Shown in pieces: positions 23,040-28,321 of a stretch of 47,058 bases of DNA. The DNA is taken from contig CAMBBW010000004.1 of NCBI GenBank assembly GCA_945863425.1, positions 1 to 47,058 on the forward strand, in the 5' to 3' direction. The position numbers and the translations under genes were made by a program. This DNA comes from Lishizhenia tianjinensis. GTDB taxonomy: Bacteria; Bacteroidota; Bacteroidia; Flavobacteriales_D; Crocinitomicaceae. The notes beneath the pieces are model-generated. The model saw only the letters and a program-made list of their open reading frames with translations. It ran no database searches and was not told the origin of the DNA. Every line of letters begins with the position of its first letter. Position 1 is the stretch's first letter.

Positions 23040-23573
23040 TTACTTGTAAAATGGAGAAATCATAAAGTATACCACTACACCTGTTATTGCAACATACAAC
23101 CATATAGGAAAGGCAAAACGCGTCCATTTTTTGTGTTTATCAAATTTACCTTCCCACGCAAAAAGGTAAGTAAACAAAACTAATGGAATAACAGCCACAC
23201 TTAAAACAATGTGTGAGATTAATATAGTATAATAGACTGCTTTCATTGAACCTCCATATGGGGTGGAATCTGATGTCATGTGATAGGCTACATAACAAAG
23301 TAAAAACAATAAAGATAATCCAAGGCAAATCTGCATCAAACTCTGATGTAATCGCCGATTTTTACTTTTTATAGCAACCAACGACGCTATTAATAAAATT
23401 GCCGTTACACCATTAATTCCTGCATAAAATGGGGGTAAACAGGATAAGTCAATCCCGTCTACTTTTATTCCAAATAAAGCAGCAACAGCAATTGGTATAA
23501 CAATCGAAACAATTACAATTAACTTTCTAAACTTCGCTATTTGCGCTTCATTTTTTAATGTTGTACTCATCAT
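23040..23573 (-). CDS. DUF420 membrane protein (cytochrome-oxidase-associated)
   Basis: A 177-residue protein with five predicted membrane helices. DUF420 members occur next to SCO and cytochrome-oxidase genes in Bacteroidota and Firmicutes (CtaM-like neighbourhoods) and are thought to help oxidase assembly, but the mechanism is not known. Recognisable blocks are LPPFYAGINGVTAILL, HQSLMQICLGLSLLFLLCYVAYH and YYTILISHIVLSV, with conserved histidines in the helices that could bind heme or copper. It overlaps the 3' end of the SCO gene by 26 bases, so it is the last gene of the oxidase operon. Confidence 0.88.
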   Translation of the reverse strand: MMSTTLKNEAQIAKFRKLIVIVSIVIPIAVAALFGIKVDGIDLSCLPPFYAGINGVTAILLIASLVAIKSKNRRLHQSLMQICLGLSLLFLLCYVAYHMTSDSTPYGGSMKAVYYTILISHIVLSVAVIPLVLFTYLFAWEGKFDKHKKWTRFAFPIWLYVAITGVVVYFMISPFYK

Positions 23574-24222
23574 TTAATAATTTAAGGATTTCAATTTTCA
23601 TTCTATTATATTCTCCGGTATCGACTTTGCCATTTAACTCTGTAACACGGTAAACACCCCTCACATGTCCTTCCATATCAACTAAAGTAAAGGACCCAGA
23701 ATGGGCGTACCCTCCTTCAGACTCATCATCTTTACCCGCGAATGTCAGAAAGTCTTCTATCCCTAAGCGATGCGTTTCTTCCTCATTTCCAGTTAAAAAA
23801 GTCCAGTTTTTTGAAATAATACCCGCATTTTGTCGGTACTTTCTTAAGATTGATGGAGTATCATGTTTTGGATTAATAGTAAACGACAAAAATTGTATTT
23901 GATCTGAATATAATACTAATTCTTTATTTAGCTTTTTCAATTGTGAATTCATTACGGGACAAACTGTTGGACATGTTGCAAAGAAAAACTCAGCAATCCA
24001 AATTCTATTTTTAAAGTTTTGATTGGTTTTCCAAATTGAATCTTCGTTTAAATACTTAAAATCTGGAATCTTATGGAAAAGTGTGTCAATTGATTTTTTT
24101 CCATTGATTGTTTTATATTCCAAATCAAAATTTCCGAGAATCGGTAAAACACGCACCTTTTTAACTTCTTGATTGCAAGCCAAAAATAACATAGATAATA
24201 TGGAAGTTAAGATCAATCGCAT
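23548..24222 (-). CDS. SCO1/SenC-family copper chaperone lipoprotein
   Basis: A 224-residue thioredoxin-fold protein that delivers copper to the CuA site of cytochrome oxidase. A lipoprotein signal is seen at the start (LFLAC, lipid-bearing Cys16). The copper ligands are Cys84 and Cys88 in ATCPTVCPVM and His174 in YAHSGSFTLVD, so the C-x3-C plus His set is intact. It lies in the oxidase operon just after a second SCO-like gene that lacks the histidine, and overlaps DUF420. Confidence 0.93.
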   Translation of the reverse strand: MRLILTSILSMLFLACNQEVKKVRVLPILGNFDLEYKTINGKKSIDTLFHKIPDFKYLNEDSIWKTNQNFKNRIWIAEFFFATCPTVCPVMNSQLKKLNKELVLYSDQIQFLSFTINPKHDTPSILRKYRQNAGIISKNWTFLTGNEEETHRLGIEDFLTFAGKDDESEGGYAHSGSFTLVDMEGHVRGVYRVTELNGKVDTGEYNRMKIEILKLLNDEYNIKK

Positions 24223-24242: not shown

Positions 24243-24920
24243 TTAGTTTTGTTCAACTGGTGCCTTATCGTATTGTTTTTGTAAAAGGGCTAAGTGCTCC
24301 TTCATTCTACGGATCATTCCTTCTTGGTTGCCACTCAATGCCATTCTTAAATGATTTTTCTTATCTAGTAATAACATGATTTCTTGGAAATATTCTCCTC
24401 CAAAATACTGAGATCCTTTTTCCAACAAAGACTTTCCGTTACTTTTAAAATTGTACACACTTTTAACATCCCCTGTGGCCAAAATCCACAAAGAAGAATC
24501 ATACCCTTCAACTCGCTCTTTGAGCATGGAATGAACAAATTTAAGATCTTTCACACAATTTCCCTTTCCATCAGTAACAAAGGAAATTAATCGAACTTGC
24601 TTTAGTTTTTTTGATTTGTTTTTACGAATGTGTTGATAGATAATCTGATCAAGGTGCCAAAAAGACAATGAACAAGTGTCCGGACAAGATTCTTGTATGG
24701 TTGTTACAAGTACAATCGTATTTTCGAATTCCTTATAACTTCTTTTTTTTCCAGTAATGTCTACAAAAGAATACGGGACAGCAGCCCCAAAATCATCTAA
24801 TACTTTAAAATTATGTTCACAGCCCCTTGTTCCAATAAAAACAAGTAATAAAGCTGGACCAAAAACTAATAAAGTTGCAAGAACACCCCTGATTTTAATC
24901 CCAGAGACTTTTTTTTTCAT
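24243..24920 (-). CDS. Divergent SCO-like membrane-anchored thioredoxin-fold protein
   Basis: A 225-residue paralogue of the SCO chaperone with an N-terminal membrane anchor (about 11-29). The two-cysteine motif survives as ESCPDTCSL (Cys79, Cys83). At the place where SCO proteins have their copper histidine (HSGSF-x-L-x-D) this protein reads YFQEIMLLLDKKNHLRM, with Phe or Tyr in place of His. It may therefore work as a thiol reductase for the copper-site cysteines rather than as a copper carrier; that is inference. It is 20 bases upstream of the true SCO gene and 5 bases after subunit IV. Confidence 0.82.
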   Translation of the reverse strand: MKKKVSGIKIRGVLATLLVFGPALLLVFIGTRGCEHNFKVLDDFGAAVPYSFVDITGKKRSYKEFENTIVLVTTIQESCPDTCSLSFWHLDQIIYQHIRKNKSKKLKQVRLISFVTDGKGNCVKDLKFVHSMLKERVEGYDSSLWILATGDVKSVYNFKSNGKSLLEKGSQYFGGEYFQEIMLLLDKKNHLRMALSGNQEGMIRRMKEHLALLQKQYDKAPVEQN

Positions 24921-24925
24921 CTTAC

Positions 24926-25294
24926 TTAGAATGCATTTTGTTGAAGTGCATCATTTATTGCGAGCGCTTCCCAAATTGCAATAAAAATCAAATATAAAAC
25001 AAACATAAAGTATGGTATCAAAATGATATTACGCAAAGATTTTTTCTCATCACCTAAATGCATAAATACCAAAACAATGTAACCAGCTTTCACAAGTGTC
25101 ATTACAATAAACGACCATTTTACCATGGGCCAAATATCTGTACCTTGTTTAATGAACGCCCCTAAAGCAACCTCAACTGCAGTAATTGCAGTTAATAATG
25201 CCGTTACAAACCAGATTTTTTTACGGATTTTTTTTCCTTCTTCCTCGTTGTGATGAGTTTGTAAAGAATATTCAATAACGTCGTCTCTTTCCAT
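24926..25294 (-). CDS. Cytochrome c oxidase subunit IV (prokaryotic type)
   Basis: A 122-residue protein with three membrane helices (about 29-50, 58-80, 92-113) and the family segment WSFIVMTLVKAGYIVLVFMHL, where K-x-x-x-I-x-x-x-F-M-H-L is the signature of prokaryotic COX4 / CyoD-like subunits. The N-terminal HHNEEEGKKIRKKIW is cytoplasmic. It follows subunit III by 27 bases. It stabilises the oxidase rather than taking part in catalysis. Confidence 0.88.
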   Translation of the reverse strand: MERDDVIEYSLQTHHNEEEGKKIRKKIWFVTALLTAITAVEVALGAFIKQGTDIWPMVKWSFIVMTLVKAGYIVLVFMHLGDEKKSLRNIILIPYFMFVLYLIFIAIWEALAINDALQQNAF

Positions 25295-25321: not shown

Positions 25322-26344
25322 TTATACCAAGTAGAAGAATGTAAATACAAACACCCAAACTAAATCCACGAAATGCCAATATAAACCTGTTTTTTCTACC
25401 ATCTCATAATGCCCCCTTTTGTGGTATGTTCCAAGAACAACACCTATCATAATGATGATATTTATCATTACTCCAGAAAATACGTGGAAACCATGGAAAC
25501 CTGTAATGAAGAAAAAGAATTGACCGTATTGTTGAGGCCCGTATTCATTTTGTTGAAGATTTGCTCCATAAATCACTTTGTTCGGAACTCCGCTATACAA
25601 AGAAGCATAATACATCTCTTCAGCTTTTTTTCCTTCAATGTGAGAGCCAACTTTGTTTTGTTTCCCATTTTTCTTGATAATTAACTTCATGTGATCATCT
25701 GCACTTTTATTTACTTTTGCCACTGATCCATCATGCAAGTTAATCATTCCGTCCTTCAGGTTACCAGTCTCAGCAGCATGTTGGAACTCATGCATCAAAT
25801 CTTCGGTAACAACATCACCCTTTTTATGGTGGTGACCCGGAGTAACCACAGTAAAGTTTTGTATCTCACCAAAATGACCTTTCACAATTGCTTGCGAACC
25901 GTCTGCCAACTCAATTTTCCCAAACTCTGAACCATGTATGAAGTGATACCATTCCCAGGCTTGAGAACCTACAAAGAAAAATCCACCTATTATTGTAGCA
26001 ATCATCCATTTCACAACTCCTTTTTTATCCATTCTGTGCCCTGCTTCAACACCCAAAACCATTGTAACAGATGAAACAATTAAAATAAATGTCATTAACG
26101 CAACATACAATAAGGGATACCCGTGACCTAAAAACGGCATTGAATTGAACGTTTCCTCTCCAATAGGCCATGCCTCTTGCGCGTCGTGTCTTGTAAAACC
26201 ATAGGCAATCAATAATCCACCAAATGTCAATGCATCCGACACAAGGAAAAACCACATCATTAATTTACCATAACTTGTTTGAAAAGGAGATTCTTTCCCT
26301 CCCCAAAGTGTAGAAGCATCTACATGTGCTGAATGACCTGCCAT
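25322..26344 (-). CDS. ctaE: Cytochrome c oxidase subunit III (copy A) with a large soluble insert
   Basis: A 340-residue heme-copper oxidase subunit III. Family anchors are WFFLVSDALTFGGLLIAYG, SQAWEWYHFI (126-135), FFFITGFHGFHVFSG (277-291) and the C-terminal YWHFVDLVWVFVFTFFYLV. In ordinary subunits III only some 15-25 residues separate the Q-A-x-E-x block from the T-G-F-H-G block; here about 135 do (138-272). The insert is hydrophilic, contains HHHKKGD and HEFQHAAE, and has two similar beta-hairpin-like stretches (LADGSQAIVKG and LHDGSVAKVNK). The neighbouring subunit III paralogue has a different insert at the same place. It is transcribed after copy B with a 25-base gap. Confidence 0.92.
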   Translation of the reverse strand: MAGHSAHVDASTLWGGKESPFQTSYGKLMMWFFLVSDALTFGGLLIAYGFTRHDAQEAWPIGEETFNSMPFLGHGYPLLYVALMTFILIVSSVTMVLGVEAGHRMDKKGVVKWMIATIIGGFFFVGSQAWEWYHFIHGSEFGKIELADGSQAIVKGHFGEIQNFTVVTPGHHHKKGDVVTEDLMHEFQHAAETGNLKDGMINLHDGSVAKVNKSADDHMKLIIKKNGKQNKVGSHIEGKKAEEMYYASLYSGVPNKVIYGANLQQNEYGPQQYGQFFFFITGFHGFHVFSGVMINIIIMIGVVLGTYHKRGHYEMVEKTGLYWHFVDLVWVFVFTFFYLV

Positions 26345-26369
26345 ACTAGATAGAAATTTTTTTGCAAGT

Positions 26370-27425
26370 TTAATGAATAAAAAGCAAAAACAACAACAAA
26401 TACCCCCAAAGAATCGCTAAAAAATGCCAGAAAATTGCTCCGAGTCTAAGACTAAGCACATCCCCACCATCGTATTTACCTGAAAACGAGTTGATTGTTA
26501 CTTTAATCATATAAATCAAGGTGACTAAAATATGGAGTAAATGAATGAAAGTTAATATGTACATATAAGAAGATGCAGCATCTGTAGTCTCTAAAGCTTT
26601 AATCTGAAGGTATTTTGATAATTTTTTACCCTCAAAATACAAATTTCGGTTCTTGTATTCCAATTCTTTTCCCTTGTATAATAATTGAAAATCTGTCCCG
26701 AATTTCCCTCGCACGAAAAAATCTACTCTTTTGTCTAGTATATTCTGTGCAAGTTGTGACAACCTCAATTGATCAACATATTTTAATTCAGTAGAATCAG
26801 GAAAAATCAATTTATTATTCAAAACTGAAATAGATTTGTCATTATAAATTAATTCAAAGGAAGAATTCGATTTTGCCTTAGTTAGTTTCGCAGGAGTTAC
26901 TCCTATAAATTGCTTCATAAACTCTGACATCAAGTTATAGTCTACTTCGCTCATCACTTTCCCTTGACACAGATAATTATTGCCATCAACTTCGAGAATT
27001 TCACCTTTAAATTTAACTTGATAATAATCACCATATCTGCCATCAACGACCATGATGTGATTATTCGCCGCATGAATTCCATTGTCCGTTAATGCACCGT
27101 ATCCTTTAAATTGAAAATAAACAAACCCTAAACCGGCTATTAATGTAGCTGAAATAAAAATACGTAATGCTGATTTATTTTTGCTTTTTCCTTTCCTGAT
27201 AGCTATTTCTAAAAAAAGGCTGCTCAAAATAATTAAGAATGTGCTAATCCAAAAATAAGTTGGTAAAGGATATTTTAGCCAGAAAGAATCGCCCATTGAA
27301 ACGATGTATGCAGAAGTGAAGCCTGCAAAAAGCATAATAACACTAAAAATCCCAACATAAACGAGATTTTTTTTCATTTTCACCCGAACTTCAGGATCTA
27401 ATTCTTTACTGTAATCTGGTCTCAT
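26370..27425 (-). CDS. Cytochrome c oxidase subunit III-like protein (copy B) with a large soluble insert
   Basis: A 351-residue paralogue of copy A, more divergent. Membrane helices match subunit III: 21-43, 56-76 and 89-107 at the front, then ILTFIHLLHILVTLIYMI (290-307) and the C-terminal FWHFLAILWGYLLLFLLF. Between them sits about 170 residues of soluble sequence (110-283), richer in beta structure (VVDGRYGDYYQVKFKG, FELIYNDKSISVL, KFGTDFQLLYKGKEL). The glutamate-containing Q-x-x-E motif of copy A is reduced to YFQFKGYG. Two subunit III genes in tandem after ctaB are usual in Bacteroidota. It lies 8 bases after ctaB. Confidence 0.85.
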   Translation of the reverse strand: MRPDYSKELDPEVRVKMKKNLVYVGIFSVIMLFAGFTSAYIVSMGDSFWLKYPLPTYFWISTFLIILSSLFLEIAIRKGKSKNKSALRIFISATLIAGLGFVYFQFKGYGALTDNGIHAANNHIMVVDGRYGDYYQVKFKGEILEVDGNNYLCQGKVMSEVDYNLMSEFMKQFIGVTPAKLTKAKSNSSFELIYNDKSISVLNNKLIFPDSTELKYVDQLRLSQLAQNILDKRVDFFVRGKFGTDFQLLYKGKELEYKNRNLYFEGKKLSKYLQIKALETTDAASSYMYILTFIHLLHILVTLIYMIKVTINSFSGKYDGGDVLSLRLGAIFWHFLAILWGYLLLFLLFIH

Positions 27426-27433
27426 AACTTGTA

Positions 27434-28321
27434 TTATTTTGGTAACATAGGTTCTACCCTATCAAAAACATAAACGAATTGAATTATTGGTAAATAAACA
27501 AATGAAGCGAACATAAGTTTACGTGCATCCTTATCTTCACAAGAAAGAAACAATCGGTATGCATACAAGAAAAATAGAATCCCAATGAACGAACCTAAAA
27601 CGAATGTTACTGTGCCGCACCACCCCATCAACCAAGGCATTAAACTAAATGGTATTAGCGCTAATGAATAAAGCAGAATTTGAAAAGCAGAATTTTTTGT
27701 TTTTCCTGTTTTTGAAGGTAATAAATAAAAGCCTGCTCGCTGGTAATCTTCATGTAAAATCCACGCGATTGCCCAAAAGTGTGGAAACTGCCATGTAAAT
27801 TGAACAAAAAACAAAACACCCGGTAGTAATCCGAAATCATTGGTTGCTGCAATGGCTCCCAAAAAAGGAGGAATAGCACCCGGAAAGGCACCAATTAGTA
27901 CCGCCCAAGGGGTTTTTTGCTTCATCGGGGTATAAATGAAAACATAGGAAATAAAAGCAAATAAACCTAAAGCTGCTGAATATAAATTAATCATAAATAA
28001 CATAGCAGTCCCGATTACTAAACTGACAACAACAACAGCATAGGCTTCTGTGTTTGTCATCCAGCCTTGCGGAAGCGGCCTCCGATTGGTTCGATTCATT
28101 AATTTATCCAAGTGTTGTTCCCAAATCTGATTGGCTCCATTGGATGCACCAGTGACAAAAATTCCGCCGAAAGTTAATAAGGCCAATTCTGTCAAATCTT
28201 CACCCCCAGCAAATAAATAACCAGAAATTGCAGATAAAATCACTAAGGATGACAATCTGAATTTTGTAAAAATCAGATAGGTTTTAAATTTGTTGGGCTG
28301 TATAACTTTAGTTTGTTCCAT
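27434..28321 (-). CDS. ctaB: Protoheme IX farnesyltransferase (heme O synthase)
   Basis: A 295-residue UbiA-superfamily enzyme with eight or nine membrane helices that adds a farnesyl chain to heme b for the oxidase. The first prenyl-diphosphate site is GANQIWEQHLDKLMNRTNRRPLP; the usual first Asp of N-x3-D-x3-D is replaced by Glu, while the M-x-R-T-x-x-R-P block is intact. The second site region is FWQFPHFWAIAW, followed by HEDYQRAGFYLLP. It is the first gene of the oxidase assembly operon. Subunits I and II of the oxidase are not upstream, where many relatives have them. Confidence 0.93.
   Translation of the reverse strand: MEQTKVIQPNKFKTYLIFTKFRLSSLVILSAISGYLFAGGEDLTELALLTFGGIFVTGASNGANQIWEQHLDKLMNRTNRRPLPQGWMTNTEAYAVVVVSLVIGTAMLFMINLYSAALGLFAFISYVFIYTPMKQKTPWAVLIGAFPGAIPPFLGAIAATNDFGLLPGVLFFVQFTWQFPHFWAIAWILHEDYQRAGFYLLPSKTGKTKNSAFQILLYSLALIPFSLMPWLMGWCGTVTFVLGSFIGILFFLYAYRLFLSCEDKDARKLMFASFVYLPIIQFVYVFDRVEPMLPK

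Follow-up and report, generated by a model that had tools for sequence, protein, structure and literature searches.

The window analyzed here, a stretch of 47,058 nucleotides from Lishizhenia tianjinensis (Crocinitomicaceae), is contig C4 of a draft genome of 2.56 Mb that is 86% complete. As the original prediction had claimed, it carries two cytochrome oxidase subunit III paralogues in tandem, encoded by adjacent genes and referred to here as copy A (340 residues) and copy B (351 residues). The two genes lie in the following row:

27434..28321, minus strand: heme o synthase, upstream of copy B (TIGR01473, above cut-off)
26370..27425, minus strand: copy B, divergent subunit III paralogue with five helices, 351 aa (ORF, AF2 model)
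25322..26344, minus strand: copy A, five-helix-type subunit III, 340 aa (ORF, Pfam COX3, AF2 model)
24926..25294, minus strand: oxidase subunit IV (COX4_pro, E 3e-13)
24243..24920, minus strand: divergent SCO-like protein (SCO1-SenC, E 1.7e-4, slightly below cut-off)
23548..24222, minus strand: SCO1/SenC copper chaperone (E 1.2e-22)
23040..23573, minus strand: DUF420 membrane protein (E 2e-43)

The divergent SCO-like protein at 24243-24920 carries a CPDTC motif and adjoins the normal SCO gene. In a scan of named genomes, the closest match to copy A (97% identity) is a metagenome bin labeled Lishizhenia tianjinensis, and further close matches are labeled Crocinitomicaceae or Flavobacteriales, along with a few from Chryseobacterium gleum.

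Predicted fold and conserved residues of the two copies

Copy A scores above the Pfam COX3 (PF00510) cut-off (50.9 bits versus 23.8), and its best PDB sequence match is 6adq_G (E 7.4e-17); neither by name nor by score was a Bacteroidota subunit III found among the PDB matches. The divergent copy B falls under the same cut-off (16.6 bits versus 23.8, E 0.0073) and matches the NCBIfam CyoC model (TIGR02842) with an E-value of 4.7e-8, yet below the cut-off of that model. AF2 models, built from 29 sequences for copy A (mean pLDDT 79) and 26 for copy B (pLDDT 88), place five helices in each protein, at residues 25-55, 77-103, 107-137, 271-303 and 314-339 of copy A and at residues 11-44, 56-80, 84-114, 283-314 and 324-350 of copy B. 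The first helix of copy A is weakly modeled (pLDDT 57-70), and pLDDT taken by tens of residues is 87-94 across the insert of copy A and 82-94 across that of copy B.

The copy B model superimposes on bovine subunit III (1v54_C, residues 72-261) with a Z-score of 19.9 over 178 residues at 1.8 A, and the copy A model matches CyoC, CtaE and the Thermus fused chain with Z-scores of 12.3-12.8 over 138-147 residues, the matches beginning mostly at residue 59. These matches indicate that the five helices are helices III-VII of the seven-helix form. Both copies are, as modeled, subunits III of the five-helix type, and the oxidase they belong to is most likely of the aa3 type; the bundle of other five-helix subunits III (PF00510, TIGR02842, CtaE) likewise comprises helices III-VII, and it shares the HxxH and WH motifs. 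In the seven-helix subunit III, the loop corresponding to the five-helix 3-4 loop faces the periplasm. Taken with the homology to helices III-VII, this topology supports a periplasmic location for both helix 3-4 loops, in line with the proposal that their inserts occupy a shared topological slot on the same membrane face.

The helix-4 HxxH motif is kept in both A-type and B-type proteins, with a single A-type exception at the first histidine, and the helix-5 WH is present in nearly all proteins of either type. The two types part at the acidic columns of helices 1, 3 and 5, which we take to be functional positions of subunit III. Each of these columns is acidic in 180/180 A-type proteins, whereas among 164 B-type proteins an acidic residue is found in 0/164 at helix 1, in 0/164 at helix 3 and, as Asp, in 52/164 at helix 5. 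Judged from these residues, the canonical subunit III is probably copy A; copy B, because its carboxylates are lost, is probably a structural paralogue that differs from ordinary subunits III in lacking the helix 1 and 3 carboxylates kept by copy A. Loss in one copy and retention in the other thus make the tandem pair look like a division of labor and not like a gene with a spare copy.

The insert of copy A contains nine histidines, of which one is invariant within the family, and the SCO genes lie downstream, so that the insert might be read as a metal-binding or copper-delivery site tied to these operon neighbors. Across 52 family sequences His185 is indeed invariant (52/52), but the other histidines vary, from His157 (45/52) and His189 (44/52) down to His171 (9/52). 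Moreover, relatives in another family (f12) with a single-module A insert do without His185, as judged by eye, and no metal family was found by profile searches of Pfam and the PDB. With one of nine histidines invariant, the suggested link to a copper chaperone receives little support, and we consider a copper site very improbable.

Repeated modules within the inserts

The helix 3-4 loops of both copies contain repeated units, laid out as follows:

25535..25933, minus strand: copy A helix 3-4 loop, residues 138-270 (helix ends, AF2 model)
25754..25921, minus strand: copy A module R1, approximately residues 142-197 (hhalign versus R2; AF2 model)
25589..25753, minus strand: copy A module R2, approximately residues 198-252 (hhalign versus R1; AF2 model)
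26580..27083, minus strand: copy B helix 3-4 loop, residues 115-282 (helix ends, AF2 model)
26898..27044, minus strand: copy B module M1, residues 128-176 (hhalign; single-module HMM, E 1e-6)
26727..26876, minus strand: copy B module M2, residues 184-233 (hhalign to M3, 96.7)
26577..26711, minus strand: copy B module M3, residues 239-283 (hhalign; single-module HMM, E 4e-8)

Loop lengths are about 133 residues (copy A) and about 168 residues (copy B) in the AF2 models, and 137 and 167 residues by HMM boundaries. The insert of about 135 residues (138-272) expected in copy A agrees closely with the modeled 138-270. For copy B the long loop was correctly called, but the range given for it, 110-283, takes in the end of helix 3, the loop itself being 115-282. 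The length of 15-25 residues assumed for ordinary subunits III suits short A-type relatives, whose loops measure 14-33 residues, but overstates the B-type norm of 7-10. What sets the present pair apart from ordinary five-helix subunits III is that loops of 133 and 168 residues are made of repeated modules.

In copy A, R1 and R2 align to one another with an hhalign probability of 94.5-94.9 (E ~5-8e-8; reversed control 1.5), and each half opens with the motif G-x-I-x-L-x-DGS-x-A-x-V. Two DGS hairpins had been noticed in this insert and are present, because the insert consists of two tandem modules. In copy B, the three module pairs reach hhalign probabilities of 95.1 (M1-M2), 96.9 (M1-M3) and 96.7 (M2-M3), and the modules score 93-98 against a single-module profile, with reversed controls of the B comparisons at or below 6.3. 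This profile, built from 32 single-module B inserts of seven other families, is closest to M3 (97.9, E 5.5e-13) and matches 82/82 of the order's longer B inserts, in many cases at two or three places, with a best E-value of 2.5e-13 compared with 8.1e-4 for the top-scoring insert among 410 shuffled ones. Its matches in the window's family fall near insert positions 5-45, 73-99 and 122-156. Run on copy B of the window itself, the single-module HMM reports M1 and M3 and misses M2, which is reported in relatives.

Between the two copies no such relation was detected. Their inserts differ in sequence, as had been proposed, with an A versus B hhalign probability of at most 3%, and the B-module HMM run across 156 A inserts gave a best E-value of only 0.14. 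The matches among modules of one copy, together with the non-match between copies, well support the conclusion that both inserts are tandem arrays drawn from two sequence families, with two modules in copy A and three in copy B. Descent of both module types from one ancestor was considered and, by sequence, rejected (hhalign at or below 2.8, with reversed controls of those pairs at or below 0.9). In the models, strands and a helix recur in each unit of both inserts, so the two families, both being strand-rich units with a helix, may share a common fold. The copy B modules are beta-beta-beta-alpha units in which three helices alternate with strands; the all-beta domain that copy B was thought to contain is thereby ruled out by the AF2 model. 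Neither insert matched a curated family above cut-off (best Pfam E-values 0.015 for copy B and 0.12 for copy A), the best E-values in the PDB profile search were 0.085 and 0.47, and the Foldseek and VIA-align lists obtained from the full models were dominated by matches to the helix bundle.

Distribution of the inserts across Bacteroidota

To place these arrays in context, loops were measured with HMMs of the flanking helices at 182 loci, including 100 stretches hand-picked for spread, that were left from 189 loci after the removal of 7 repeat genomes. Both genes are complete at 162 loci; the 20 dropped comprise 17 distant relatives without B in the stretch, 2 with A cut off and 1 in which B was not found. 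The window's order, which as used here is narrower than the NCBI order, contains a copy A match in 149/150 genomes, and the phylum in 221/296.

The B insert follows this order closely: B loops measure 56-242 residues in 112/112 loci inside it and 7-10 residues in 50/50 loci outside it. Lengths fall in steps of 7-10, 56-74, 111-117, 146 (one locus), 166-180 and 233-242 residues, and the window's family occupies 166-178 (57 loci). An increment of one module per step was considered and rejected, since it fails for three of these classes: one module is recognized in loops of 111-117 residues, two in the loop of 146, and two or three in those of 233-242. In a helix-core tree of 109 loci, with no genus contributing more than two, the order forms one group, though with support of only 0.10; the B insert probably arose once.

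A loops measure from 16 to 226 residues in the 162 loci, with a loop of 14 in one dropped row. Loci L019, L147 and L024 have A loops of 194, 194 and 226 residues, with additional material beyond two modules. Both loops could be measured in 77 of 80 named loci, the other 3 being without B; a long A loop is paired with a B loop of 8-10 residues in 44/77, including Flavobacterium and Maribacter, and both loops are long in 33/77. Named Flavobacterium loci have an A loop of 120-137 residues and no B insert, and the 26 loci of family f17 have loops of similar size to those of named Flavobacteriaceae (A 120-137, B 10). Among Flavobacteria, a long A loop is a common feature. Across Bacteroidota and the PDB subunits III, however, the survey did not show the canonical loop to be this long in the majority of groups.

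Three genera assigned to the same family as the window (g17, g23 and g24) combine A loops of 26-46 residues with B loops of 168-170. At these loci (L130 for g17, L132 for g23 and L131 for g24) the A and B cores group with families f10 and f13, apart from the rest of the window's family, and the odd placement may reflect either operon transfer or a matter of classification.

The original prediction that the inserts meet each other can be examined through this variation. Shared slot and face, adjacent genes and the co-occurrence of both inserts at 100 of 162 loci (presence cut-offs of 60 residues for A and 40 for B) would suit two copies lying side by side in one oxidase with their inserts docked mutually. 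However, 35 loci have the A insert only and 12 the B insert only, with neither present in 15, and A and B loop lengths are uncorrelated among genus medians inside the order (rho 0.02, 51 genera, p 0.90); the correlation over all 82 genera (rho 0.31, p 0.004) reflects the restriction of the B insert to a single order. The inserts thus vary independently, their module families have no sequence relation and no oxidase is known to us to offer more than a single site for subunit III. The two inserts may touch in this species, but mutual docking as a rule appears quite unlikely.

The same survey bears on whether the modules have a function at all, as they could decorate, lineage by lineage, an outer loop that tolerates such additions, in which modules duplicate and persist by folding harmlessly, with at most a small stabilizing effect on the oxidase. 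Loop size shifts in many lineages without a clear correlate, A loops are short in the three genera above, and the inserts evolve faster than the cores: median identity is 56% in the insert versus 88% in the core of copy A, and 40% versus 55% in copy B. Such lower conservation is also compatible with loose constraint. Harmless decoration fits less well with a B insert that is present in all 112 loci of the order with both genes complete and kept to a narrow length range in the window's family, where an alignment of 14 sequences also shows several module positions without variation.

A candidate role at the alternative complex III

A search of the window's own genome recovered one cbb3 subunit (contig C22) and one aa3-type subunit I, preceded by subunit II on contig C121, where the order is ActE, ActF, subunit II, subunit I and the contig ends at ActE:

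L270:3086-4363 (contig C121), minus strand: aa3 subunit II, 426 aa

ActF and ActE were recognized by their matches to 6btm_F (311 bits) and 6btm_E (68 bits), and ActF was found in 58/60 genomes of the order. The NrfD Pfam model gave no match in the window's own genome; as ActF was found there by PDB comparison, this model is too distant to serve as a test for alternative complex III (ACIII). Copies A and B lie on a different contig from these genes and most likely belong to the aa3 oxidase beside ActE and ActF. In families f3 and f13, ActF frames measure 481-635 aa, compared with ~400 in the window's family, and their N-terminal part is unmatched.

According to a review, the ACIII-oxidase contacts of F. 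johnsoniae, whose supercomplex map is EMD-7447, go via a five-helix subunit III (PMC8361435). Flavobacterium is described as possessing ACIII, and a deletion study found ActE dispensable for electron transfer (PMC8552683). The supercomplex of F. johnsoniae is reported to be built differently from that of R. marinus and to have an additional cytochrome c domain on ActA (PMC5928083). The present system resembles the F. johnsoniae ACIII-aa3 supercomplex in having ActE, ActF and subunits II and I in a row and in its five-helix subunit III, the reported contact there (PMC8361435). It differs from Flavobacterium loci, where the A insert has another length and the B insert is absent. In the actinobacterial bcc-aa3 systems of M. 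smegmatis and C. glutamicum, the five-helix subunit III CtaE is likewise described as contacting the electron donor complex (PMC8361435), and the best PDB match of copy A, 6adq_G, belongs with these systems; there CtaF supplies helices I-II, without a module array, whereas tandem five-helix paralogues are found here.

ACIII is therefore a natural candidate for the shared partner that had been suggested for both inserts. From the topology, the gene neighborhood and the findings in other species, a function as periplasmic props can be proposed. Copies A and B would be subunits III of the aa3 oxidase that partners ACIII, and their loops would project from that side of subunit III by which the Flavobacterium supercomplex reportedly makes its ACIII contacts. 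There the loops may form adjustable walls or props, may keep ACIII in position and may bound the space in which the ACIII cytochrome c domains reach the CuA site. We tentatively favor this overall explanation, lineage-tuned periplasmic modules at or near the ACIII interface, although Flavobacterium has ACIII and its named loci are without a B insert. Decoration of a tolerant loop is nearly as likely; mutual docking has less support than either, and a copper site has the least. A bolder form of the favored explanation, that both paralogues grow length-adjustable repeat arrays module by module and that these are lineage-specific docking props for ACIII and its cytochrome c domains, strikes us as rather unlikely; if true, array size would predict supercomplex geometry.

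Whatever their role, the arrays alter the usual view of subunit III as a conserved helix bundle, as here an outward loop is the site at which modules multiply, and they did so independently in two paralogues. Among the titles and abstract openings surveyed, none dealt with the inserts or with paired subunits III in Bacteroidota. The natural series of loop sizes, with no module, one or three, and with lengths between and beyond, could be used to probe the role of subunit III at the ACIII contact.

Loop size was also compared with the length of subunit II, for which open frames, ranging in the order from ~350 (cut) to more than 500 aa, served as a proxy. The A loop is uncorrelated with subunit II frame length (rho -0.06), and the B loop gives rho 0.32 (p 0.03, one of three tests, uncorrected for kinship), so nothing solid emerges. 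At one place within its CuA domain, the window species' subunit II has ~99 residues where the Rhodobacter subunit has ~43.
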